Below are positions 48,485 to 64,000 of a stretch of 64,000 nt of DNA, one piece after another; the stretch's first letter is position 1; each line of letters starts with the position of its first letter. Made by a program: the position numbers and the translations under genes. The notes below the pieces were generated by a model. That model was given only the letters and a program-made list of their open reading frames with translations, ran no database searches and had not been told where the DNA came from. This DNA is from Sphingobium sp. TCM1 (lineage in GTDB: Bacteria; Pseudomonadota; Alphaproteobacteria; Sphingomonadales; Sphingomonadaceae): NCBI RefSeq assembly GCF_001650725.1, contig NZ_LXVX01000012.1, positions 1-64,000 of the forward strand. The letters run 5' to 3'.

Positions 48485-48775
48485 TCAGCCCGTTATCTTC
48501 GCCTGCGCGAACGCTACCAGGGTTCCGAAAGTCTCGAACGTGTCACCGTCGATATCGTCATCCTCGATCAGGATGTCGAAACGGTCCTCCATCTCGGTCA
48601 GCAGGCCGGCGACCGCCATGGAATCCAGTTCGGGCAGAGCGCCGAACAACGGAGTGTCCGCGTCGAACGCGTCGACTTGGCTCTGCGTCAGTCCCAGCAC
48701 GTCGCGCAACAGCGCTCGCATCAGGCTGTCCACATCGATGGTCCGATCGACCGGTTGAGAAGTTTGCGCCCGCAT
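48485..48775 (-). CDS. Acyl/aminoacyl carrier protein of the XrtA locus
   Basis: A 96-aa carrier protein with a phosphopantetheine attachment motif ELDSMAV (Ser52), the DSM form of the DSL signature. The acidic helix II is clear (ALPELDSMAVAGLLTEMEDRFDI). It is downstream of the GNAT-fold gene on the same strand, 27 bp apart. With the acyl-CoA ligase and decarboxylase on the other strand it forms a plausible loading module. It is unlikely to be the fatty-acid ACP, which normally sits with fab genes. Confidence 0.87.
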   Translation of the reverse strand: MRAQTSQPVDRTIDVDSLMRALLRDVLGLTQSQVDAFDADTPLFGALPELDSMAVAGLLTEMEDRFDILIEDDDIDGDTFETFGTLVAFAQAKITG

Positions 48776-48802
48776 GATGGGGCCTGAATAAAGGCTCGCG
48801 GC

Positions 48803-49864
48803 CTAACCTACAAGCGCGGAAATAGCCGTCCGCGCCGCGGGCAGCCAGGCGGAGGCCGCGCGCGGGTTGAAGGCGTCGATCCGCTGGAGCGGAACGCGTT
48901 GCTCCATCCAGTCGCGCTTGTAGCCATTGTCGCCGGTACCATAGTCGATCAGCGTGACTCGATCCTGATCGATCGCCTGTTCGAACATGGCGTGGCTCAG
49001 CAGCGTGCCGGGCGATCCGCCGTCGCACGCGCGGTCATGGCTCAGCTTGTGGATCAGCGCGACGCCATGCTCGATCGTCCACAATTGCGTCGCGACCGCC
49101 CGTCTGTCGAGCCGGGCGAAACCCAGTCGCAGGGTTCCCGCTGCCGCTTCCCGTTCGGCGAGGGCGCGCAGGAAATCGAGGCCGCTCGCCGGTTCCGCGT
49201 CCTTCCAGCTGCGTGCATGGACATCGACATAGTCGGTCCACAGATCGTCGGTCAGCCTGTCGCTGATCGACAGGGCGAAGGGGCTGTTGCGCCCTTTGCG
49301 CCGGACCAGGTTCCGCAGCCGGCCGGGGCGTGCCGCCCAATAATCCTCAAAGCTGCGACCCTCCATCTTCAGCAAATGGCGCCCGCCCATCGGCCGGCTT
49401 ACGGTAAACCAGCCCGCGCGGCGCAAGGCGTTCAGCAGCTCGGTGCCATCCTCGAGTGGATAGAGGTCAATCTGCGCGCACTGCGCGAGCAATGCGCGGG
49501 CGACCGCGTCGAGCAGGCGTGCCTGCGCGGCCGGGTCCGGCGCACCGAGGAAGATGGGCGCCCAGGAAAAGCTGTACCAGTTCGCCAGCGCGCTGATCCG
49601 GCGCGGGGCAGGGGCGACCAGGAACAGCCAGACTTCGGCCTCGCCCTCCTGAGCGTGGAGGATGCGGAGCGGCAATTGGGCGCAGCAATGGCGATGGAGC
49701 GCCTCGAACCAGTCGAGTCTTCCGAAAAGGGCAGGCACATGGCCGCGACCGAGGCGGCCGGCGAGCGCCTGCCGCACATCATCCAGGCTGTGATATTCCC
49801 TTGGCGCCCGCAACCGACTATCTCCGCCCCAGTCACGACACGCATAGGAGAAGAATCTGCACAT
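48803..49864 (-). CDS. CelD/BcsL-like GNAT-fold acyltransferase
   Basis: A 353-aa protein with a late FemAB/CelD-type GNAT fold: GGRHLLKMEGRSFEDYWAARPGRLRNLVRRKGRN, then LRLGFARLDRRAVATQLWTIEHGVALIHKLSHD and DYGTGDNGYKRDWM. Such proteins transfer acyl or aminoacyl groups to sugars or amines. The annotated ATG at 49864 lies only 14 bp from the divergent ligase start; a GTG near residue 30 might be the real start. It is next to the carrier protein gene, suggesting that it takes its donor from that carrier. Confidence 0.8.
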   Translation of the reverse strand: MCRFFSYACRDWGGDSRLRAPREYHSLDDVRQALAGRLGRGHVPALFGRLDWFEALHRHCCAQLPLRILHAQEGEAEVWLFLVAPAPRRISALANWYSFSWAPIFLGAPDPAAQARLLDAVARALLAQCAQIDLYPLEDGTELLNALRRAGWFTVSRPMGGRHLLKMEGRSFEDYWAARPGRLRNLVRRKGRNSPFALSISDRLTDDLWTDYVDVHARSWKDAEPASGLDFLRALAEREAAAGTLRLGFARLDRRAVATQLWTIEHGVALIHKLSHDRACDGGSPGTLLSHAMFEQAIDQDRVTLIDYGTGDNGYKRDWMEQRVPLQRIDAFNPRAASAWLPAARTAISALVG

Positions 49865-49878
49865 GGAGTTAAGCGGCC

Positions 49879-51423
49879 GTGACTGAATATCCTTCCATGA
49901 TCGACGGCGCTCAGCTTAGTCCGGTGGACCATCTGCTGCTTCGCGGCGATTCGGTCCAGCTGGCGCTGGACGGCCGATCGGGCAGCTACAGCTATGCCGA
50001 ACTGGAACAGACGCTGGGCCGGCTGGCCGGTTGGCTTGCGGGCTTCGGACTGGAATCGGGCGCACGGGTCGCGAGCTGGGTGGCCAAGGGGCCGGTGGCG
50101 GCGCTGATGCCGCTGGCCGCGCCGCGCGCCGGCCTGGTCCATGTGCCGATCAATCCGCTGCTCAAACATGCTCAGGTCGCCCATATCCTGGCGGACAGCG
50201 GGGCAGCGCTGCTGATAGGAACGGCGGCGCGACTCGACAGCCTGAAGCCGGGTGACGTCCCGCCCGGATGCCGGCTTCACCGGGAAGATGATGCGGCCTG
50301 CGCCATGAGCGGCGGGCAGGGGATAGGCCCATCGGACGCAAGGCCGGACGATCTGGCCGCGATTCTCTACACCAGCGGGTCGACCGGGCGGCCCAAGGGC
50401 GTGGTGCTGACCCATGCCAATCTATGGCTGGGCGCGGTGGCGGTGGCTGACTATCTGAAACTCGCGCCAAACGATCGCACCGCCTGCGTCCTGCCCTTCA
50501 GCTTCGACTATGGCCAGAACCAGCTGCTTTCGACCTGGTTCTCGGGTGGCTGCGTCTATCCGCTCGACTATCTGACGCCGCGCGACGTCATGAAGCTGGT
50601 GGACCGGCGCGACATTACGACATTGGCTGGCGTACCTCCGCTCTGGGTGCAACTGACCGAACTGGAATGGCCGCCGGAAGTCGCCGCGAAATTGAAGCGC
50701 CTGACCAACAGCGGCGGCGCGCTGACCCGTCCGCTGGTGGCGAGGCTGCGGGCACTATTCCCTCAGGCGGACCTTTATCCCATGTATGGCCTGACCGAGG
50801 CGTTTCGCTCCACCTATCTGCCGCCCGCTCTGGTGGACGCTCATCCCGATTCGATGGGCAGCGCCATCCCTTTCGCCGAAATCCTGGTTGTGCGCCCCGA
50901 CGGTAGCCTGACCGACAGCGACGAGCCGGGCGAACTGGTCCATTGCGGCCCGCTGGTGGCGCAGGGCTATTGGCGCGATCCGGCGCGCACGGCCGAACGC
51001 TTCCGGCCGGCACCGGCCGCGTCGCGCTATGGCGGCATGGCGGTCTGGTCGGGCGATACGGTGCGGCGCGACGCGGACGGACTGCTCTATTTCGTCGGCC
51101 GCGACGACGCGATGATCAAGTCGGCCGGGAACCGCATCAGCCCGACCGAGATCGAGGAGGCGGCCGTCGCCGTGCCCGGCGTGGCCGAAGCGGTGGCGCT
51201 CGGCGTCAAGGACGACCGGCTGGGACAGGCGGTGCGCCTGCTCCTGCGCGCCGACGATCCCGCCATCGCCGAAGCGGTCGCGGCGCAGCTCAAGGTCGAA
51301 CTGCCCAATTTCATGCAGCCCAAGGACATCATCGTGCGCCCTGAATTTCCCCGCAATCCCAATGGCAAGATCGACCGGGTTGCACTGTCGAGAGATTTTG
51401 GCACCGGGGAGTCTGGCGTATGA
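49879..51423 (+). CDS. Acyl-CoA ligase, exosortase A system-associated
   Basis: A 514-aa AMP-forming enzyme (TIGR03098 type) with A3 motif YTSGSTGRPKG, A5 YGLTEAF, A8 GDTVRRDADGLLYFVGRDDAMIKSAGNRISP, and A10 PNGKIDR containing the catalytic Lys. It activates an acid as an adenylate and may load it on the carrier protein. Start is GTG at 49879; an ATG at 49897 is an alternative. The stop overlaps the next ATG (ATGA). Confidence 0.9.
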   Translation: MTEYPSMIDGAQLSPVDHLLLRGDSVQLALDGRSGSYSYAELEQTLGRLAGWLAGFGLESGARVASWVAKGPVAALMPLAAPRAGLVHVPINPLLKHAQVAHILADSGAALLIGTAARLDSLKPGDVPPGCRLHREDDAACAMSGGQGIGPSDARPDDLAAILYTSGSTGRPKGVVLTHANLWLGAVAVADYLKLAPNDRTACVLPFSFDYGQNQLLSTWFSGGCVYPLDYLTPRDVMKLVDRRDITTLAGVPPLWVQLTELEWPPEVAAKLKRLTNSGGALTRPLVARLRALFPQADLYPMYGLTEAFRSTYLPPALVDAHPDSMGSAIPFAEILVVRPDGSLTDSDEPGELVHCGPLVAQGYWRDPARTAERFRPAPAASRYGGMAVWSGDTVRRDADGLLYFVGRDDAMIKSAGNRISPTEIEEAAVAVPGVAEAVALGVKDDRLGQAVRLLLRADDPAIAEAVAAQLKVELPNFMQPKDIIVRPEFPRNPNGKIDRVALSRDFGTGESGV

Positions 51424-52652
51424 AGCCCATGGGTCCGATCCCGTCCTGGTTCGATGCCGAGGACGACATGCTGCTGATCGGCGACTGCGGCGCGGAAAGC
51501 CTGGTGGACGAGGCGGGCGACACGCCGCTCTTCGTCTATGACATGGCGATCGTCGAGGCGCAGGTCCGCCATTTCCGAGACGCCATGCCGGATACGCTCC
51601 ATCTTCATTATGCGATCAAGGCCAATCCCTTCGCCCCGCTGCTGGCGCGCATGGCGCATCTGGTCGACGGTTTCGACATCGCTTCGGGTGGCGAAATGGA
51701 CATGGCGCTCGAAGCTGAAATGGCGCCCGATCGCATCAGCTTCGCCGGGCCGGGCAAGCGCAATGACGAACTGTCCGCCGCCATCTTCGCGGGCGTGACC
51801 ATCAATCTCGAATCGGAAGGGGAGGCGCGCCGCGCTCTGGCCGTGGCCGACGCGATCGGCAAGACGCCGCGCCTTGCCGTCCGCGTCAATCCCGACTTCG
51901 ATCTCAAGGGGTCGGGGATGCGTATGGGTGGCGGCGCCAAGCCCTTCGGCGTCGATGCGGACCGGGCGGCGGCGCTCGCCCGCATGGTGATCGACGCCGG
52001 GGCGGCGTGGCAGGGCTGGCATATCTTCGCGGGCAGCCAGAATCTGGATCCGCTGGCGATCATCGAAACCCAGGCCGCGACCATCGCACTTGCCGCACGC
52101 CTGTCCGACGATGTGGGCGCCAGCCCGCCGCTGGTCAATCTGGGCGGCGGCTTCGGCATCCCTTATTTCCCCGGCGATCAGCGGCTCGACATCCGGCCGA
52201 TCGGCACGGCGCTCGACACGGCTCTGGAGCAGAGGGCCGACATTCTCCGCGACAGCGGCTTCGCGATCGAACTTGGCCGCTGGCTGGTCGGCGAGGCGGG
52301 CGTCTATCTGACGCGCGTGGTCGACGTGAAGATCAGCCAGGGTGAAACCTTCGTCGTTGTCGACGGCGGCCTGCACCATCAACTCGCCGCCAGCGGCAAT
52401 TTCGGCACGGTCGTGCGGCGCAACTATCCGATCGCGGTCGCAAACCGTTTCGGCGTCGCCCCGGCGGCGGAACCGGTAACGGTCGTGGGATGCCTCTGCA
52501 CGCCGATCGACCGGCTGGGGGACAAGGTAGCCCTGCCGCCGGTGGAGGAGGGCGATCTCATCGCCATCTTCCTTGCCGGAGCCTATGGCGCATCGGCCAG
52601 CCCCGCCGCCTTCCTTGGCCACCCAAGTCCCCGCGAACTTTTACTTGGCTGA
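51420..52652 (+). CDS. PLP-dependent decarboxylase, exosortase A system-associated
   Basis: A 410-aa fold-type III enzyme (TIGR03099 type) related to diaminopimelate and ornithine decarboxylases. The PLP Lys is in HYAIKANPF, phosphate-binding regions in HIFAGSQ and NLGGGFGIPYFP, and the C-terminal barrel carries VVGCLCTPIDRLGD with the catalytic Cys region. The substrate is unknown. It overlaps the ligase stop by 4 bp, so both are made together. Confidence 0.9.
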   Translation: MKPMGPIPSWFDAEDDMLLIGDCGAESLVDEAGDTPLFVYDMAIVEAQVRHFRDAMPDTLHLHYAIKANPFAPLLARMAHLVDGFDIASGGEMDMALEAEMAPDRISFAGPGKRNDELSAAIFAGVTINLESEGEARRALAVADAIGKTPRLAVRVNPDFDLKGSGMRMGGGAKPFGVDADRAAALARMVIDAGAAWQGWHIFAGSQNLDPLAIIETQAATIALAARLSDDVGASPPLVNLGGGFGIPYFPGDQRLDIRPIGTALDTALEQRADILRDSGFAIELGRWLVGEAGVYLTRVVDVKISQGETFVVVDGGLHHQLAASGNFGTVVRRNYPIAVANRFGVAPAAEPVTVVGCLCTPIDRLGDKVALPPVEEGDLIAIFLAGAYGASASPAAFLGHPSPRELLLG

Positions 52653-52783
52653 TTTGCTCGGGACTTAACTCCTAACGGTATCTTTACCCTTTCGGGGCAA
52701 GAAGAATCCCAAAGCCCTGTTCCCTCGGGCCGCCTCTTCTCTTTGGCGGCCGATGGCGCATGGCCACGACAAGGGGTGAAAAT

Positions 52784-53428
52784 ATGCGTTTCGTGTCGGT
52801 TTCCAGGCTTCTGCTCGGTGCATCGCTGCCCGCCGTCGCCTTGTCGGGCTGCGCCTCCGGGCCGTCCGGGCCGCAATTGCCCCCGGCCTCCTTCGTCTCG
52901 ACGCAGGAGGGGCCGGGCGAGGAATATGTCATCGGCCCGCTCGATGATCTCACCATCTTCGTCTGGCGCAATCCCGAACTGGGCGCGAAGGTTCAGGTGC
53001 GCCCCGACGGTCGCATCACCACGCCGCTCATCACCGACATGCCAGCCGTGGGCAAGACGCCCAAAATGCTGGCCGACGACATCAAGCTGGCGCTGACCCA
53101 ATATATCGAAAATCCGCTGGTGTCGGTGATCGTCAACAATTTCAGCGGCACCTTCAGCCAGCAGGTCCGGATCGTGGGGGCGACGGAAAAGCCGGCTTCC
53201 ATTCCCTATCGCGCCAACATGACCCTGCTCGATGCGATGATCGCGGTGGGCGGCCTCAGCGAATTTGCCGCGGGCAATCGCGCGCGACTGGTGCGCTTCG
53301 ACAAGGATACGGGCAAGCAGAAGGAATATCAGGTGCGCCTGAACGACCTGCTCAAGAAGGGGGAAACCCGTGCCAACGTCATGCTGGCGCCCGGCGACGT
53401 CATCATCATTCCCGAAAGCATGTTCTGA
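52784..53428 (+). CDS. XrtA system polysaccharide export protein (Wza family)
   Basis: A 214-aa lipoprotein (lipobox LSGC) with the export domain beginning EEYVIGPLDDLTIFVWRNPELGAKVQVRPDGRITTPLI, and an SLBB part (RIVGATEKPASIPYRANMTLLDAM). This matches the PEP-CTERM/XrtA-specific export family. It is 2 bp before the chain-length gene. A weak frame upstream (52760) is less likely the start. Confidence 0.92.
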   Translation: MRFVSVSRLLLGASLPAVALSGCASGPSGPQLPPASFVSTQEGPGEEYVIGPLDDLTIFVWRNPELGAKVQVRPDGRITTPLITDMPAVGKTPKMLADDIKLALTQYIENPLVSVIVNNFSGTFSQQVRIVGATEKPASIPYRANMTLLDAMIAVGGLSEFAAGNRARLVRFDKDTGKQKEYQVRLNDLLKKGETRANVMLAPGDVIIIPESMF

Positions 53429-57510: not shown

Positions 57511-59175
57511 ATGTACGATCAATTCTACGGATTGCAGGGCCGTCCGTTCCAGCTGACGCCGGACCCGCATTATTATTTCGAGAGCGCCACGCATCGGAAG
57601 GCGCTGTCCTATCTGGGCTATGGCCTTGCCCAGGGCGAAGGCTTCATCGTCATCACCGGTGACATCGGCGCGGGCAAGACGACGCTGGTCGGGCATCTGA
57701 TGCAGACGATCGACCCGGCGCGCCTGACCGCGGTCAAGATCGTGTCGACGCAGGTGGAGGGCGACGACATGTTGCGCCTCGCCGCGCAGAGCTTCGGTCT
57801 GGAGACGGAAGGCTTCACCAAGGCGGCGACCCTGCAACGAATAGAGGGCTTTCTCCATGCCCAGGCGCGCGCCGGACGGCGTAGCCTGCTGATCGTGGAC
57901 GAAGGCCAGAATCTGGGGATTTCGGCGATCGAGGAACTGCGGATGCTGTCCAACTTCCAATTGGGCGGACAGTCGCTCCTCCAGATATTCCTGCTCGGCC
58001 AGCCGGAATTTCGCGACCTGCTGAAATCGCCGGAACTGGAACAGTTGCGCCAGCGCGTGATCGCGACCCATCATCTCGAACCGATGATGCCGCGCGAGGT
58101 CGAACCCTATATCCTCCATCGTCTTGGCGTGGCGGGTTGGAGCGGAAACCCCGCCTTCACCCCGGCCGCCTTCTCCGCCCTTTATGCCGCGACCGGCGGC
58201 GTGCCGCGCCGCCTCAACGCGCTTGTCAGCCGCGTGCTGCTGCTGGGCGCGATCGAGGGATTGCACGAGATCGACGCCGATGTCGTGGCGGCCGTGGTCG
58301 CCGACATGGGCATGGATGTCGACCTGATGCCCGAACCGATCGCACCGTCGGTGCTCGATCTGGCCCAGGAACCGGCGGTGCTCGATCTGGCCCAGGAACC
58401 GGCCGAACCGGATGGGGCCGATCCGGTGGAAGCCGAGGCGGCGGCGGTCGAACCCGAATCTGCCGAACCCTTGCCGGTATTCCCCATGGCGGAGGCGTCG
58501 GAATCCGCGTGGACCGAGCAGCCGGGCGCCGATCCGCAACAGCCGGAGCAAAGCCTGGCCGATCCGGTCGATCAGGATGAGGATGCACCGCTGGACCTGG
58601 AGGGCGAGGACTATCAGCCGCGTTTCCTCTCTCCTGCGCGTTTCGCCGCTCCCTATGGCAGTACGGCCGAAGCGGAGAGCGAGCCGGTGTCCCCGGTTCC
58701 CTCTTTCGCATCGTCCCATGATGAGCCGACCGAGGATGTCTGGCCCGTCGACGCCCCGGACGAGCCGGTCGCCTGCCATTCGGCCGACCGGCAGGACTCC
58801 GACGAACCGGAACTCGACCCCGTCCACGCCCTCAACCAGGACGAAGACATCGTCGATCCAATCCACCCGCAGGAGACCCTCGATATGCTGCGCCGCGACA
58901 TGCAGGACGAAATCGCCGCCCTGCGCGCCGAAATCGCCTCGCTGCGCGCGGTCCAGGCCCACGCGCCTTTCGGCGCGCCGGTGCCGACGGTCGATCCCGA
59001 AGCGCTAAAGGACTGCTTCACCCTGGTCGAGGAACGCCTCTCCACGCTCGAATTTCGCGCCGAGGAGCAGGATACCGCGCTGCGCCGCGTCCTGACCATG
59101 CTGGTCGAATGGGTCGAGCGTGAGGATCGGATGGCCGACGCTGGACAGGATGCGGCGCTGGCCCGCGCGCACTGA
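57511..59175 (+). CDS. XrtA-associated ExeA-like AAA ATPase
   Basis: A 554-aa ATPase of the ExeA/TniB type: MYDQFYGLQGRPFQLTPDP, Walker A GDIGAGKTTL (50-59) and Walker B SLLIVDEGQN (125-134). The ATPase part ends near residue 275. A long Pro/Glu/Ala-rich acidic linker follows, then a predicted coiled coil at about 455-545. The linker contains a 27-bp DNA tandem repeat. Without a membrane helix it is likely cytosolic and may energise assembly or length control. Confidence 0.9.
   Translation: MYDQFYGLQGRPFQLTPDPHYYFESATHRKALSYLGYGLAQGEGFIVITGDIGAGKTTLVGHLMQTIDPARLTAVKIVSTQVEGDDMLRLAAQSFGLETEGFTKAATLQRIEGFLHAQARAGRRSLLIVDEGQNLGISAIEELRMLSNFQLGGQSLLQIFLLGQPEFRDLLKSPELEQLRQRVIATHHLEPMMPREVEPYILHRLGVAGWSGNPAFTPAAFSALYAATGGVPRRLNALVSRVLLLGAIEGLHEIDADVVAAVVADMGMDVDLMPEPIAPSVLDLAQEPAVLDLAQEPAEPDGADPVEAEAAAVEPESAEPLPVFPMAEASESAWTEQPGADPQQPEQSLADPVDQDEDAPLDLEGEDYQPRFLSPARFAAPYGSTAEAESEPVSPVPSFASSHDEPTEDVWPVDAPDEPVACHSADRQDSDEPELDPVHALNQDEDIVDPIHPQETLDMLRRDMQDEIAALRAEIASLRAVQAHAPFGAPVPTVDPEALKDCFTLVEERLSTLEFRAEEQDTALRRVLTMLVEWVEREDRMADAGQDAALARAH
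58351..58404 (+). repeat. 27-bp tandem repeat within the ATPase gene
   Basis: GTGCTCGATCTGGCCCAGGAACCGGC* occurs twice head to tail (26 of 27 identical), encoding VLDLAQEPA twice. It falls in the disordered acidic linker and could expand or contract without frame shift. Confidence 0.93.
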
Positions 59176-59197
59176 TCGAAGGCGGGGTGACACGACC

Positions 59198-60043
59198 ATG
59201 CGCAACGCCCTGTCCGTCGATGTGGAGGACTGGTTCCAGGTCGGCGCTTTCGAGCGCACGATCGACCGTGCCGACTGGGACGGGCTGACCCACCGGGTCG
59301 AGCGCAATACCGATGCGGTGCTGGATCTGTTCGCGCAGACGGGTGTGAAGGCGACCTTCTTCACCCTGGGCTGGGTCGCGGAGCGCTATCCCGCGCTGAT
59401 GCGGCGCATTGCGATGGGCGGGCATGAGATTGCGAGCCATGGCTACGACCATGCGCGCGTCTTCACCTTCACGCCCGACCAGTTCCGCGCCGACCTGCGC
59501 AAGGCACGCGCCCTGCTGGAGGATGCGAGCGGGCAGGCCGTGACCGGCTATCGTGCGCCCAGCTTCTCCATCGATCCGCGCACGCCCTGGGCGCATCCGA
59601 TCCTGGCGGAGGAAGGCTATCGCTATTCCTCCAGCGTCGCGCCGATCCGGCACGACCATTATGGCTGGCCCGATTCTCCGCGCTTCGCCTGGAAGCCGGT
59701 CAAGGATTCGCCGCTGGTGGAGTTGCCGGTCACGACCGCCAGGTTGGGCAAGCGCACATTGGCGGCTGGCGGCGGCGGCTTCTTCCGTCTGCTGCCCTAT
59801 GGCTTTTCCCGCTGGGCGATCCGGCAGGTCAACGAACAGGCCGGCCGGCCCGCGATCATCTATTTCCATCCCTGGGAAATCGATCCCGATCAGCCGCGCG
59901 TGGCCGATGCGCCGCTGCGCTCCCGCCTGCGCCATTACAGCAATCTGTCGGTGATGGCGGCCAAGCTGCGCCGCCTGACCGGTGATTTCGACTGGACTCG
60001 GGTCGACGCCCTGGCCGATGCCGAAGCGGCGCGCGCGACATGA
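59198..60043 (+). CDS. XrtA-associated polysaccharide deacetylase (DUF3473 type)
   Basis: A 281-aa NodB-fold carbohydrate esterase that would remove acetyl groups from the exopolysaccharide. It begins ALSVDVEDWFQVGAF (catalytic Asp and metal Asp) and has SHGYDHARV (metal His pair), RAPSFSID, the FKPVKDSPLVELPVT region and a C-terminal DUF3473 module (IYFHPWEID). No signal peptide is visible, so it may act in the cytosol on the lipid-linked intermediate. The stop overlaps the following ATG. Confidence 0.92.
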   Translation: MRNALSVDVEDWFQVGAFERTIDRADWDGLTHRVERNTDAVLDLFAQTGVKATFFTLGWVAERYPALMRRIAMGGHEIASHGYDHARVFTFTPDQFRADLRKARALLEDASGQAVTGYRAPSFSIDPRTPWAHPILAEEGYRYSSSVAPIRHDHYGWPDSPRFAWKPVKDSPLVELPVTTARLGKRTLAAGGGGFFRLLPYGFSRWAIRQVNEQAGRPAIIYFHPWEIDPDQPRVADAPLRSRLRHYSNLSVMAAKLRRLTGDFDWTRVDALADAEAARAT

Positions 60044-61110
60044 TCGCAGGAAACGGCGCCGCTATCGCCATAACCATGCTCGACCTGCGCGATCCGGTGC
60101 AGGCGCAGGCGGTCGACGCCTATGTGCTGGATCATGCGGAAGGAACGCCCTTCCATCGTCCCGCGTGGCTCGGCGCGATCGAGGAGGCGACGGGAAACCG
60201 GGCCTTGGCGCTGACGGCAGTCGCGCCTTCGGGTCAGATCATCGGCTTCCTGCCGCTCCATCACGTCAAGAGCGCGTTCTTCGGGCAGGCGCTCATATCC
60301 ACCGGCTTCGCGGTCGATGGCGGCATATTGGCCGACGATGCGCGCGCGGTGGCAAGGCTCGCCGCGGCGGCGCAGGAACTTGCGCGCGCACGCGGAAACC
60401 TGCCGATCGAATTGCGCGGGGGCGTGGAACCCGGATCGGGCTGGGACCGGCGGGAAGGGCAGCATGTCGGCTTCAGCCGCCCGATCGCCGCCGATGACGA
60501 GGCCGAATTGCTGGCCGTGCCGCGCAAGCATCGCGCCGAACTGCGAAAGGCGCTGGCCAATCCCGCGCTGACGGTCGAGGTGGGCCGGGACCGGCGCCAT
60601 CTGCGCGACCATTATCATGTCTACGCCACCAGCGTCCGCAATCTCGGCACGCCTGTCTTTCCCGCGCGCCTGTTCCGCGCCGTGCTGGAACGGTTCGGCC
60701 AGGATGCCGACATTTTGATCGTGCGGGAAGGGGGGCGGGCCGTATCGGCCGTGCTCAGCCTCTACCATCGGGGCCGGGTCATGCCCTATTGGGGCGGCGG
60801 CATCAGTGATGCCCGCCGGTTGCGGTCCAACGAACTCCTCTATTATCGGTTGATGGGCCATGCCCGGACGCGGGGCATGACCGGGTTCGACTTCGGCCGG
60901 TCCAAGGTCGGCAGCGGGCAGGCTGCCTGGAAGAGGAGCTTCGGCTTCGAACCGCATCCGCTCGTCTATCATGCCTGGTCGCCGGACGGAGCCCGGCGCG
61001 ACGTCGATCCCACCAGCGCCCGATATCAGCGACGGATCGAATATTGGAAGAAATTGCCGTTGCCGGTCGCCAACCTTGTCGGACCATTCATCGCGCGCGG
61101 ACTGGGCTGA
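60040..61110 (+). CDS. FemAB-like XrtA-associated transferase, copy 1
   Basis: A 356-aa protein of the FemAB GNAT fold. Landmarks are HRPAWLGAIEEATGNRALALT, GFLPLHHVKSAFFGQALISTGFAVDGGI, VPRKHRAELRKAL, YHVYATSVRNLGTPVFPARLF, MPYWGGG and FDFGRSKVGSGQAAWKRSFGF. FemAB enzymes transfer amino acids to peptidoglycan precursors; the family in XrtA loci is unassigned. It is coupled by ATGA to the deacetylase and followed after 12 bp by its paralogue. Confidence 0.9.
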   Translation: MIAGNGAAIAITMLDLRDPVQAQAVDAYVLDHAEGTPFHRPAWLGAIEEATGNRALALTAVAPSGQIIGFLPLHHVKSAFFGQALISTGFAVDGGILADDARAVARLAAAAQELARARGNLPIELRGGVEPGSGWDRREGQHVGFSRPIAADDEAELLAVPRKHRAELRKALANPALTVEVGRDRRHLRDHYHVYATSVRNLGTPVFPARLFRAVLERFGQDADILIVREGGRAVSAVLSLYHRGRVMPYWGGGISDARRLRSNELLYYRLMGHARTRGMTGFDFGRSKVGSGQAAWKRSFGFEPHPLVYHAWSPDGARRDVDPTSARYQRRIEYWKKLPLPVANLVGPFIARGLG

Positions 61111-61122
61111 GGGGAGATGACC

Positions 61123-62196
61123 ATGAACGCGATTGTTGATCTTGCGGTTATCGTGCAGGAGGCCCGCCTGTCCGATCCCGCGACGGTCGCCGCACTCGAC
61201 AAATGGGTCCTGGCCCATCCCGTTTCGACGCCGTTCCACCGGCCGGGATGGATCATGGCGGTCGAGGCGGGCACCGGACAGAAGGCGAAAATGCTGGTCG
61301 CGCGCCGCCCGGGTGGCAAAATCGCCGGCGTGTTGCCGCTCACCCATATCCGGTCTGCGCTGTTCGGCCGCGCCCTGGTCAGCAGTGGCTTCGCGGTCGA
61401 CGGCGGCATGTTGGTCGATCACCGGAAGGCGGGTCCGGCACTGGCCGATGCCGCCTGGACGCTCGCCCGGACATTGGGCTGCACGACTGTCGAACTACGC
61501 GGCGGCGAAGCGCCGACCGACCCCATCTGGCAAAACAAGGCCGACGCCTATCTCGGTTTCTCCCGTCCCCTGGCTGAGGACGACGCCGCGGAACTCAAGG
61601 CCGTGCCCAAGCGACATCGGGCCGAAATCCGCAAGGGACTGGCCAATGATCTGGCCTTCGAGGTCGGCCGAGACAAAAGACTGCGCGACATTCACTATCG
61701 GCTCTATGCACACAGCGTCCACAATCTCGGCACGCCCGTCTTTCCCCGCGCCCTGTTCGACGCCGTGCTCGACCGGTTCGGGGATGATGCCGACATCGCC
61801 CTTGTGTCGAAGGATGGCAAGCCGCTCTCGGCCGTCATCAGCCTTTACCATCACGGCGCCTGTATGCCCTACTGGCACGGCGCAGCGGATGGCGCGCGCG
61901 CGATGCGCTCGAACGAGGCGCTCTATTTCCGGCTGATGCGCCGCGCGCACGAGCGGGGCTGCACCCTTTTCGACTTCGGCCGGTCGAAGGTCGGAACCGG
62001 CCCGGCGGCATGGAAGAAGACATGGGGCTTCGCGGGCGAACCGCTGGGCTATCATCTGCGCACCGCGCCGGGCCATGAGACGCGCGACGTCAACCCGCTG
62101 TCGCCCCAATATCGGCGCAAGGTCGAATTGTGGAAGAAACTGCCCGAATCCCTCGCCAACCTGATCGGCCCGCATATCGCGCGAGGGCTGGGGTGA
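61123..62196 (+). CDS. FemAB-like XrtA-associated transferase, copy 2
   Basis: A 357-aa paralogue of the previous gene, with the same order of motifs (VPKRHRAEIRKGL, YAHSVHNLGTPVFPRALF, MPYWHGA, FDFGRSKVGTGPAAWKKTWGF). The ATG at 61123 has a GGGGAG site 6 bases before it; an ATG at 61117 is also possible. The two copies probably arose by tandem duplication and might act on two different sugar or peptide acceptors. The stop overlaps the GTG of the next gene (GTGA). Confidence 0.9.
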   Translation: MNAIVDLAVIVQEARLSDPATVAALDKWVLAHPVSTPFHRPGWIMAVEAGTGQKAKMLVARRPGGKIAGVLPLTHIRSALFGRALVSSGFAVDGGMLVDHRKAGPALADAAWTLARTLGCTTVELRGGEAPTDPIWQNKADAYLGFSRPLAEDDAAELKAVPKRHRAEIRKGLANDLAFEVGRDKRLRDIHYRLYAHSVHNLGTPVFPRALFDAVLDRFGDDADIALVSKDGKPLSAVISLYHHGACMPYWHGAADGARAMRSNEALYFRLMRRAHERGCTLFDFGRSKVGTGPAAWKKTWGFAGEPLGYHLRTAPGHETRDVNPLSPQYRRKVELWKKLPESLANLIGPHIARGLG

Positions 62197-63407: not shown

Positions 63408-64000
63408 GTGATCGCACCATCGCGTCCGACCATGTGCCGCTCATCGCCCTGACCGGCTGGCGCCGCTATCTGATCGCGCTGGGCGTGGTGGCGTTCGCCA
63501 TCCTCTCGCTTTTCCTGAACGATGTCTGGTCCATGGTGTCCATCTGGTGGAAAGCCTCCACCTTCGGCCATTGCCTCTTCATCCCCTTTCTCATCGCCTG
63601 GCTGGTGCAGCAACGCCTGGGCGGCCTGCGCCAGTTGCAGCCGGTCGCCTGGGCGCCGGGCCTGCTCTGGCTGGGCGCGGGCGCCTTTGCCTGGCTGCTC
63701 GGCGCGGCGGCGGGGGTGGCGATGATCCGCCATGGCGCGCTGGTCGTCATGCTCCAGGGCGCGACCATCGCGCTGCTCGGCCCGGCGGTCGCCCGCGCTT
63801 TGCTCTTCCCGCTCTTTTACGCCTTCTTCATGGTCCCCTTCGGCGAGGAGATCGTACCGCCACTGCAATTGCTGACCGCGCGGCTCGCCATGCTGCTGCT
63901 CGACCTGTCAGGCGTCCCCGCGCATATGGAGGGCATCTTCATCACCACGCCGACCGGCTATTTCGAGGTCGCTGAAGCCTGCTCCGGAGCGAAATTCCTG
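63404..64000 (+). CDS. xrtA: Exosortase A (partial, cut by window end)
   Basis: The 5' part (199 codons) of a polytopic transpeptidase-like processing enzyme. Several membrane helices are visible, then GEEIVPPLQLLTARLAMLLLDLSGVPAHMEGIFITTPTGYFEVAEACSGAKFL. The catalytic Cys193 lies in the EACSG motif; the later catalytic Arg and His lie beyond the window. It would cleave proteins after a C-terminal PEP motif. The start overlaps the previous stop by ATGA. Confidence 0.94.
   Translation, partial: MSDRTIASDHVPLIALTGWRRYLIALGVVAFAILSLFLNDVWSMVSIWWKASTFGHCLFIPFLIAWLVQQRLGGLRQLQPVAWAPGLLWLGAGAFAWLLGAAAGVAMIRHGALVVMLQGATIALLGPAVARALLFPLFYAFFMVPFGEEIVPPLQLLTARLAMLLLDLSGVPAHMEGIFITTPTGYFEVAEACSGAKFL

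Follow-up and report, generated by a model that had tools for sequence, protein, structure and literature searches.

A predicted beta-aminoacyl-carrier module beside the exosortase A locus of Sphingobium sp. TCM1

We analyzed a stretch of 64,000 nucleotides of Sphingobium sp. TCM1 (positions 1 to 64,000 of contig NZ_LXVX01000012.1, hereafter the window) in which four genes stand ahead of a set of exopolysaccharide (EPS) and exosortase A (XrtA) genes. They encode an acyl carrier protein (ACP), a GNAT-family transferase, an AMP-forming ligase and a fold-III pyridoxal phosphate (PLP) decarboxylase. An initial annotation had described them as one module at the head of the XrtA locus, and the four open reading frames were recovered where it had placed them, two on each strand and with the families it had named (PF00550, PF13480, TIGR03098 and TIGR03099). 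The ACP, ligase and decarboxylase genes form a conserved core, and their kinship to enzymes of known function suggests that the module is a beta-aminoacyl-carrier machinery in an envelope-polysaccharide setting. The GNAT is an accessory that travels with the EPS genes, outside the conserved core.

In the proposed route, the ligase would activate the side-chain carboxyl of an amino dicarboxylic acid (most likely L-aspartate) as the adenylate and charge the holo-ACP with it at Ser52. While bound to the carrier, the amino acid would then lose its free alpha-carboxyl to the decarboxylase, leaving a beta-aminoacyl-ACP that is most likely beta-alanyl-ACP. The likely clients in XrtA genomes would be the FemX-like GNAT and, in most relatives, also hydrolases of the TIGR03100/TIGR03101 families; the GNAT would take the beta-aminoacyl group off the carrier and join it to an amine or hydroxyl on an envelope acceptor, which might be an amino sugar of the exopolysaccharide. 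A PLP enzyme removes the carboxyl next to the amine, so the thioester would have to be on the side-chain carboxyl, which is the orientation used by VinN; with this orientation aspartate giving beta-alanyl-ACP is the best guess and glutamate giving gamma-aminobutyryl (GABA)-ACP its rival. We consider the full route, from loading of aspartate via its beta-carboxyl to transfer onto an envelope acceptor, to be moderately probable. Loading and carrier-bound decarboxylation are supported by homology and by individual residues; the choice of aspartate over glutamate, the transfer and the acceptor are parts that we infer. The order of activation, loading, decarboxylation and transfer had been put forward in the initial annotation; its first three steps draw support from the kinship to VinN and BtrK and from pocket residues, and the last is made plausible by the FemX-like fold of a structural model.

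The ligase is predicted to be a VinN-like AMP-forming amino acid:carrier ligase acting on L-aspartate via the beta-carboxyl. When a profile built from 15 XrtA ligases was searched against PDB structures, VinN was the best single adenylation (A) domain, with 285 bits. LgrA scored 433 bits, spread over two domains of 190 and 232; as this score is the sum of two A domains that are each below VinN, LgrA was dropped as the closest relative. The entry 8xjz totalled 344 bits, with none of its individual stretches better than E 1e-60. With a profile restricted to the pocket region VinN ranked first, in a gapless alignment from TNS to the end. Ser299 and Arg331 of VinN (chain index minus 16; residue numbers from the accessible part of PMC11253843) align with the Ser/Thr and the invariant Arg of MYGLTEAFRSTYL, the shortened loop of VinN aligns without gaps with the ligase family over the Ser299-Arg331 stretch, and an equivalent of VinN Asp230 is present. 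In the available text of PMC7756342, the proposed role of Asp230 is towards the alpha-amino group and that of Ser299/Arg331 towards the alpha-carboxyl group. Every one of the 44 XrtA-type loci that hold a ligase has the amino-binding Asp (D235 equivalent) and the pocket Arg; at the Ser299 position, 35 of the 45 ligase rows have Ser and nine have Thr, and the one left over is a piece of a split gene. Of the 25 further match rows in this genome, the seven with the highest scores, all other AMP-ligases, were compared, and none has the Asp and Arg pair. Among the 26 match rows in the genome a single one is over the TIGR03098 cut-off, and the closest relatives of this ligase in named genera are from Sphingobium, at 82-88% identity. 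In locus L122 (L122:7756-9317) the ligase is split into two overlapping frames, by a frameshift or an assembly error; this locus keeps the ACP, decarboxylase and EPS genes and has no GNAT nearby.

The decarboxylase is predicted to be a BtrK-type fold-III PLP enzyme acting on a carrier-bound amino acid. Against solved structures it matched BtrK, the L-glutamyl-[BtrI carrier] decarboxylase, with E 8e-71, an SbnH-type enzyme (6knh) with 3e-40 and diaminopimelate decarboxylases with 6e-38. We took 6knh as SbnH; the accessible part of PMC7857480 names 6knk, and the 6knh sequence is near-identical. A tree was built from 61 family members together with BtrK, SbnH, the LysA of the genome itself and an ornithine decarboxylase (ODC)-like paralogue; VinO is absent from it and only two outgroups are unrelated. 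BtrK was nested in the family with a support of 0.995, and SbnH, LysA and the ODC-like paralogue fell outside. In the family rows printed, the active-site loop is LCTPxD or LCTSxD, as in BtrK and SbnH; in the window decarboxylase it is LCTPID. The LysA of the genome has a CETGD loop, and the window decarboxylase is without the Glu of the CExGD loop, which we take to be the defining mark of LysA. According to the portion available of PMC7857480, FigC, SbnH, AcsE, MccE and BtrK form one clade with diaminopimelate decarboxylases and D-ODC, have no polyamine role and take as substrates amino acids that are attached to a larger moiety.

The ACP is, from its sequence, a likely stand-alone acyl or aminoacyl carrier protein. 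Its phosphopantetheine Ser52, already singled out in the initial annotation, sits in ELDSMA, and this Ser was kept in 55 of the 55 ACPs found beside a decarboxylase. The same family includes a solved carrier, 2LKI (E 2.7e-14 with the window ACP and 2.8e-17 with the related ACP of locus L071), which was deposited without a function, as a putative uncharacterized protein, and which we take to be Nitrosomonas NE2163.

The GNAT (48803-49864) had no match at E 1e-5 in an NCBIfam scan, and its identification as TIGR03019 or TIGR03694 was ruled out; the TIGR03019 genes of the locus are those at 60040 and 61117. A sequence search against the PDB found nothing for it, leaving the fold alone informative. 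The AlphaFold2 model, computed with a 20-sequence alignment (mean predicted local distance difference test 93.6), was compared by Foldseek and by VIA-align, and the top folds in both were aminoacyltransferases, namely FemX, Sba18/Sbb17, FemA and MprF (Z 15.3-19.4 over 261-297 residues). FemX gave Z 19.4 with 291 residues aligned at a root-mean-square deviation of 4.3, a tandem-GNAT fold over the whole chain, and the aminoacyl-tRNA-dependent peptide synthases Sba18/Sbb17 gave Z 19. The model thus suggests that the GNAT may transfer the group, and its gene neighbourhood suggests the carrier-bound aminoacyl as donor. These best folds, and the position of the GNAT gene next to the ACP gene in the window, were counted in favour of the route.

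Loci in other genomes were picked by matches to the decarboxylase or the ligase, so the pairing of these two is partly built in; the ACP, GNAT, hydrolase and EPS genes played no part in the choice, and the co-occurrence p values ignore relatedness. Among 398 genomes from the phylum, TIGR03099 was over the cut-off in 30, XrtA in 35 and both in 27, with the decarboxylase only in three and XrtA only in eight (p 1.5e-31). Because of these eight genomes, XrtA does not need the module everywhere. The decarboxylase was found at E <= 1e-90 in 213 of 249 genomes of the same family and in 7 of 190 genomes of a class sample. With the window included, 61 decarboxylase loci had a ligase nearby in 56 cases and an ACP in 55; for the 45 loci with an over-cut-off decarboxylase, each was present in 44 within the ~20 kb fetched. 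The grouping of ACP, ligase and decarboxylase reflects conservation, not chance. In the 14 non-sphingomonad loci with an over-cut-off decarboxylase, a relative of hydrolase 1 was present in 12 and the GNAT in three (a 34-bit match in L082 is not counted).

Two further groups of loci differed in their surroundings. The lower-scoring decarboxylase relatives L085-L100 had a ligase nearby in 12 of 16, an ACP in 11 and, within the stretch fetched, an EPS export or chain-length relative in two, and are possibly beta-aminoacyl natural-product clusters. In L074, L080 and L082 a different GNAT (PF13480 in L074) lies beside a DegT-type sugar aminotransferase, within ~10 kb of the core, an arrangement that could possibly be a route to an aminosugar acceptor in other lineages.

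Natural deletions in sphingomonad loci separate the core from its companions. Of 111 such loci, 17 were dropped for short flanks, leaving 94 usable loci, two of which are second copies of the same genome (92 distinct). The ACP, ligase and decarboxylase genes were all present in 94 of the 94. The GNAT, hydrolase 1 and EPS genes accompanied them in 64 of the 92 distinct loci. Nine had no hydrolase 1 (the window, six titled Sphingobium and two Proteobacteria bins), seven (six titled Sphingomonas) had no nearby GNAT yet carried EPS genes, two had the GNAT and hydrolase with no adjacent EPS genes, and ten had no GNAT, no hydrolase and no EPS export or chain-length genes. The GNAT and EPS genes were associated (p 1.5e-7). 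XrtA was over the cut-off in none of the ten core-only genomes compared to six of seven control genomes, and a search for the GNAT elsewhere in the ten gave one weak match of 55 bits. Core-only loci in genomes with no XrtA match (L109, L121 (= L196), L124, L156, L157, L182, L200 and L201) have high-scoring ligases. In two of the ten, L195 and L208, a relative of the XrtA ATPase still lies beside the decarboxylase, and in the L208 genome an exosortase match stays below the cut-off at 127.7 bits (same match coordinates as G267); three of the ten, L156, L157 and L208, are metagenome bins, so absence is weaker there. For EPS-bearing loci without the GNAT nearby, three Sphingomonas genomes were checked: that of L211 has a 345-bit copy elsewhere, whereas those of L202 (36 bits) and L205 (no match) have none.

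The co-occurrence of all four genes, which the initial annotation had implied, thus held for the ACP, ligase and decarboxylase and failed for the GNAT, which is away from the core in 17 of the 92 distinct sphingomonad loci and in 11 of the 14 non-sphingomonad loci; the four-gene unit was rejected in favour of a three-gene core. Nor is the core specific to XrtA, since ten sphingomonad genomes without XrtA over the cut-off keep it. As the GNAT and hydrolases are mostly found together with the EPS genes and the core survives without them, the pattern favours a core that supplies a shared building block, with EPS as one client. In the core-only loci this building block would then be put to a use independent of XrtA.

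Several observations weigh against this picture of aspartate loading and transfer to the exopolysaccharide. With the window ligase alone as query, VinN (197.5 bits) ties with the peptide synthetase 8xjz (198.5). The pocket Arg is also present in 12 of the 13 ligase rows of the lower-scoring group (the Asp in 13), so it is no mark of XrtA, and at the position of VinN Phe231 the 45 ligase rows, window included, have Tyr in 38, Ala in six and a gap in one, so that specificity may vary. Tandem GNATs of the acetyl-CoA type come close behind in the fold list (Z 14.7-15.0), so the fold does not settle the donor, and FemX-type enzymes take aminoacyl-tRNA. Seven EPS-bearing loci have the GNAT away from the core and nine loci, the window among them, have no hydrolase 1, so neither can be the sole transferase; given the ten genomes with the core and no XrtA over the cut-off, exopolysaccharide may not be the only target.

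The glutamate rival bears directly on the choice of aspartate: the same machinery would yield GABA-ACP in the manner of BtrI/BtrJ/BtrK, and the closest solved decarboxylase, BtrK, is indeed a glutamyl-carrier enzyme. We nevertheless hold it to be decidedly unlikely, as the ligase resembles VinN, with an aspartate-sized pocket and the Ser/Arg pair, and not BtrJ. Alternatively the amine of the beta-aminoacyl-ACP might itself be acylated, with the GNAT as N-acyltransferase and an N-acyl-beta-alanine lipid or linker as product in place of a polysaccharide decoration. The bolagladin proposal (BolO/BolC/BolN), in the part of it available, offers a precedent by joining a beta-aminoacyl amine to a fatty acyl group, but the best folds of the GNAT are aminoacyltransferases and not fatty acyltransferases, and a scan of 31 sphingomonad loci, the window included, for a gene of the kind that would support it found none; we regard this reading as unlikely.

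The idea that the decarboxylase belongs to lysine or polyamine metabolism, the ligase being an unrelated acyl-CoA ligase and their adjacency incidental, could appeal to the 227 bits that the decarboxylase reaches on the LysA model TIGR01048 and to the annotation of the ligase family as acyl-CoA ligase. It is scarcely credible: the score is below the cut-off of 297.9, the genome encodes a separate LysA of 440 bits, the decarboxylase groups with BtrK, the ligase has the amino-binding Asp that the seven other ligases lack, and an ACP is conserved beside both genes. A role restricted to polyamine or lysine metabolism, which the initial annotation had named as the finding that would overturn it, is thus disfavoured, and the candidate was rejected on the separate LysA and the tree. 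Returning to transfer onto an envelope acceptor, one extension is very improbable in our estimate: the module would put a free beta-alanyl primary amine on the exopolysaccharide or on its lipid anchor, exosortase A would join PEP-CTERM proteins to it, as sortases use peptide amines, and in XrtA-less genomes the same carrier would serve another envelope polymer or lipid.

Known systems share parts of this logic. In vicenistatin biosynthesis VinN/VinL/VinO, like the window, combine a stand-alone AMP-ligase, a stand-alone ACP and a PLP decarboxylase, and VinN loads 3-methylaspartate on VinL in a thioester formation that must precede decarboxylation by VinO (PMC11284099, in the part accessible). 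This system makes a polyketide starter unit, whereas the window module lies beside EPS/XrtA genes with a FemX-like transferase, and no polyketide synthase was found in the annotated neighbourhood (46.7 kb to the window end and ten frames beyond). FlvN of fluvirucin biosynthesis, of the VinN type, uses aspartate. In butirosin biosynthesis BtrK, which the window decarboxylase resembles, works on a carrier-bound amino acid; the system differs in its substrate, glutamate, and in its ligase BtrJ, which is an ATP-grasp enzyme. In teichoic-acid D-alanylation, DltA/DltC bring an amino acid to a polymer of the cell surface by way of an AMP-ligase and a carrier protein; the delivery logic is shared, but they use D-alanine without decarboxylation and a membrane transferase, DltB, and the window ligase is not DltA (137 bits, cut-off 560). 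FemX, FemA and MprF have the fold of the window GNAT (Z 15-19) at ~7-16% identity and use aminoacyl-tRNA. The proposed BolO/BolC/BolN pathway for bolagladin places a VinN-like ligase, a freestanding ACP and a BtrK-like decarboxylase in a proteobacterium (PMC7756342, available text) and differs in feeding a nonribosomal peptide synthetase lipopeptide. Deletion of the BtrK-like bolN abolished the product, and beta-alanine did not restore it.

The route had been called undescribed. Its chemistry is known from these antibiotics (for BolO/BolC/BolN as a proposal), and no report of its use in XrtA loci was found in literature covered by title and abstract start, with few subscription papers. The part available of Haft 2006 (PMC1569441) contains no mention of the ligase, decarboxylase, carrier protein or hydrolase, and that of PMC2907700 describes an EPS/epsH cluster without such a module. 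The context notes of the TIGRFAM curators presumably place the ligase (TIGR03098) and decarboxylase (TIGR03099) together. The new elements are the precise known chemistry to which the module is assigned, the substrate predicted for it, the core of three genes and the persistence of this core without XrtA.

Table 1. The module and annotated context genes in the window
Feature	Position	Strand	Match
ACP	48485-48775	-	96 aa; PF00550, 28.8 bits (cut-off 20.8)
FemX-like tandem-GNAT protein	48803-49864	-	PF13480, 67.6 bits
AMP-forming ligase	49879-51423	+	TIGR03098, 615.9 bits (cut-off 592.35)
Fold-III PLP decarboxylase	51420-52652	+	TIGR03099, 545.1 bits (cut-off 478.45)
XrtA-system exopolysaccharide export protein (context)	52760-53428	+	TIGR03027, 225.5 bits
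XrtA-system polysaccharide deacetylase (context)	59120-60043	+	TIGR03006, 426 bits
Two tandem FemAB-family XrtA-associated proteins (context)	60040-62196	+	TIGR03019, 320 and 330 bits
Exosortase A (context)	G000:C12:63479-64252 (window holds 63479-64000)	+	TIGR03109, 315.7 bits

The ligase and decarboxylase genes overlap by 4 bases, and the GNAT and ACP genes, separated by 27 bp, are likely co-transcribed. The listed start codons of the GNAT and ligase, on opposite strands, are only 14 bp apart (49864-49879), so the true start is probably further inside one or both genes. Downstream of the module follow genes for export (TIGR03027), chain length (TIGR03007), a kinase, an outer-membrane protein, an ATPase and the deacetylase (TIGR03006), then the two FemAB genes, a glycosyltransferase, exosortase A, which extends beyond the window end, and an amidotransferase. 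The deacetylase could expose amines on the polymer. With the tandem TIGR03019 duplicate and the module GNAT, the locus has three PF13480 transferases. In L104 (5845-6528) and relatives a 228-aa gene without Pfam match stands between hydrolase 1 and the ACP; this unannotated, divergent family is weakly related to hydrolase 2 (TIGR03101), gave strong matches in 25 of the 30 sphingomonad loci fetched and was not found in the window or its eight nearest relatives. A GDSEG motif in two hydrolases, considered as a nucleophile elbow lost in the sphingomonad hydrolase-2 relative, was dropped as the alignment resembles a different loop.

Combined, these assignments would bring two 'hypothetical equivalog' families and the solved carrier 2LKI together in a single pathway whose substrate class can be named. 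If they are true, many Proteobacteria also use carrier-bound beta-amino acids, which are known from antibiotics, to modify their envelope. We know of no attachment chemistry for the XrtA system, and the module would provide a concrete candidate, whilst the ten XrtA-less genomes that keep the core point to where a second target may lie.

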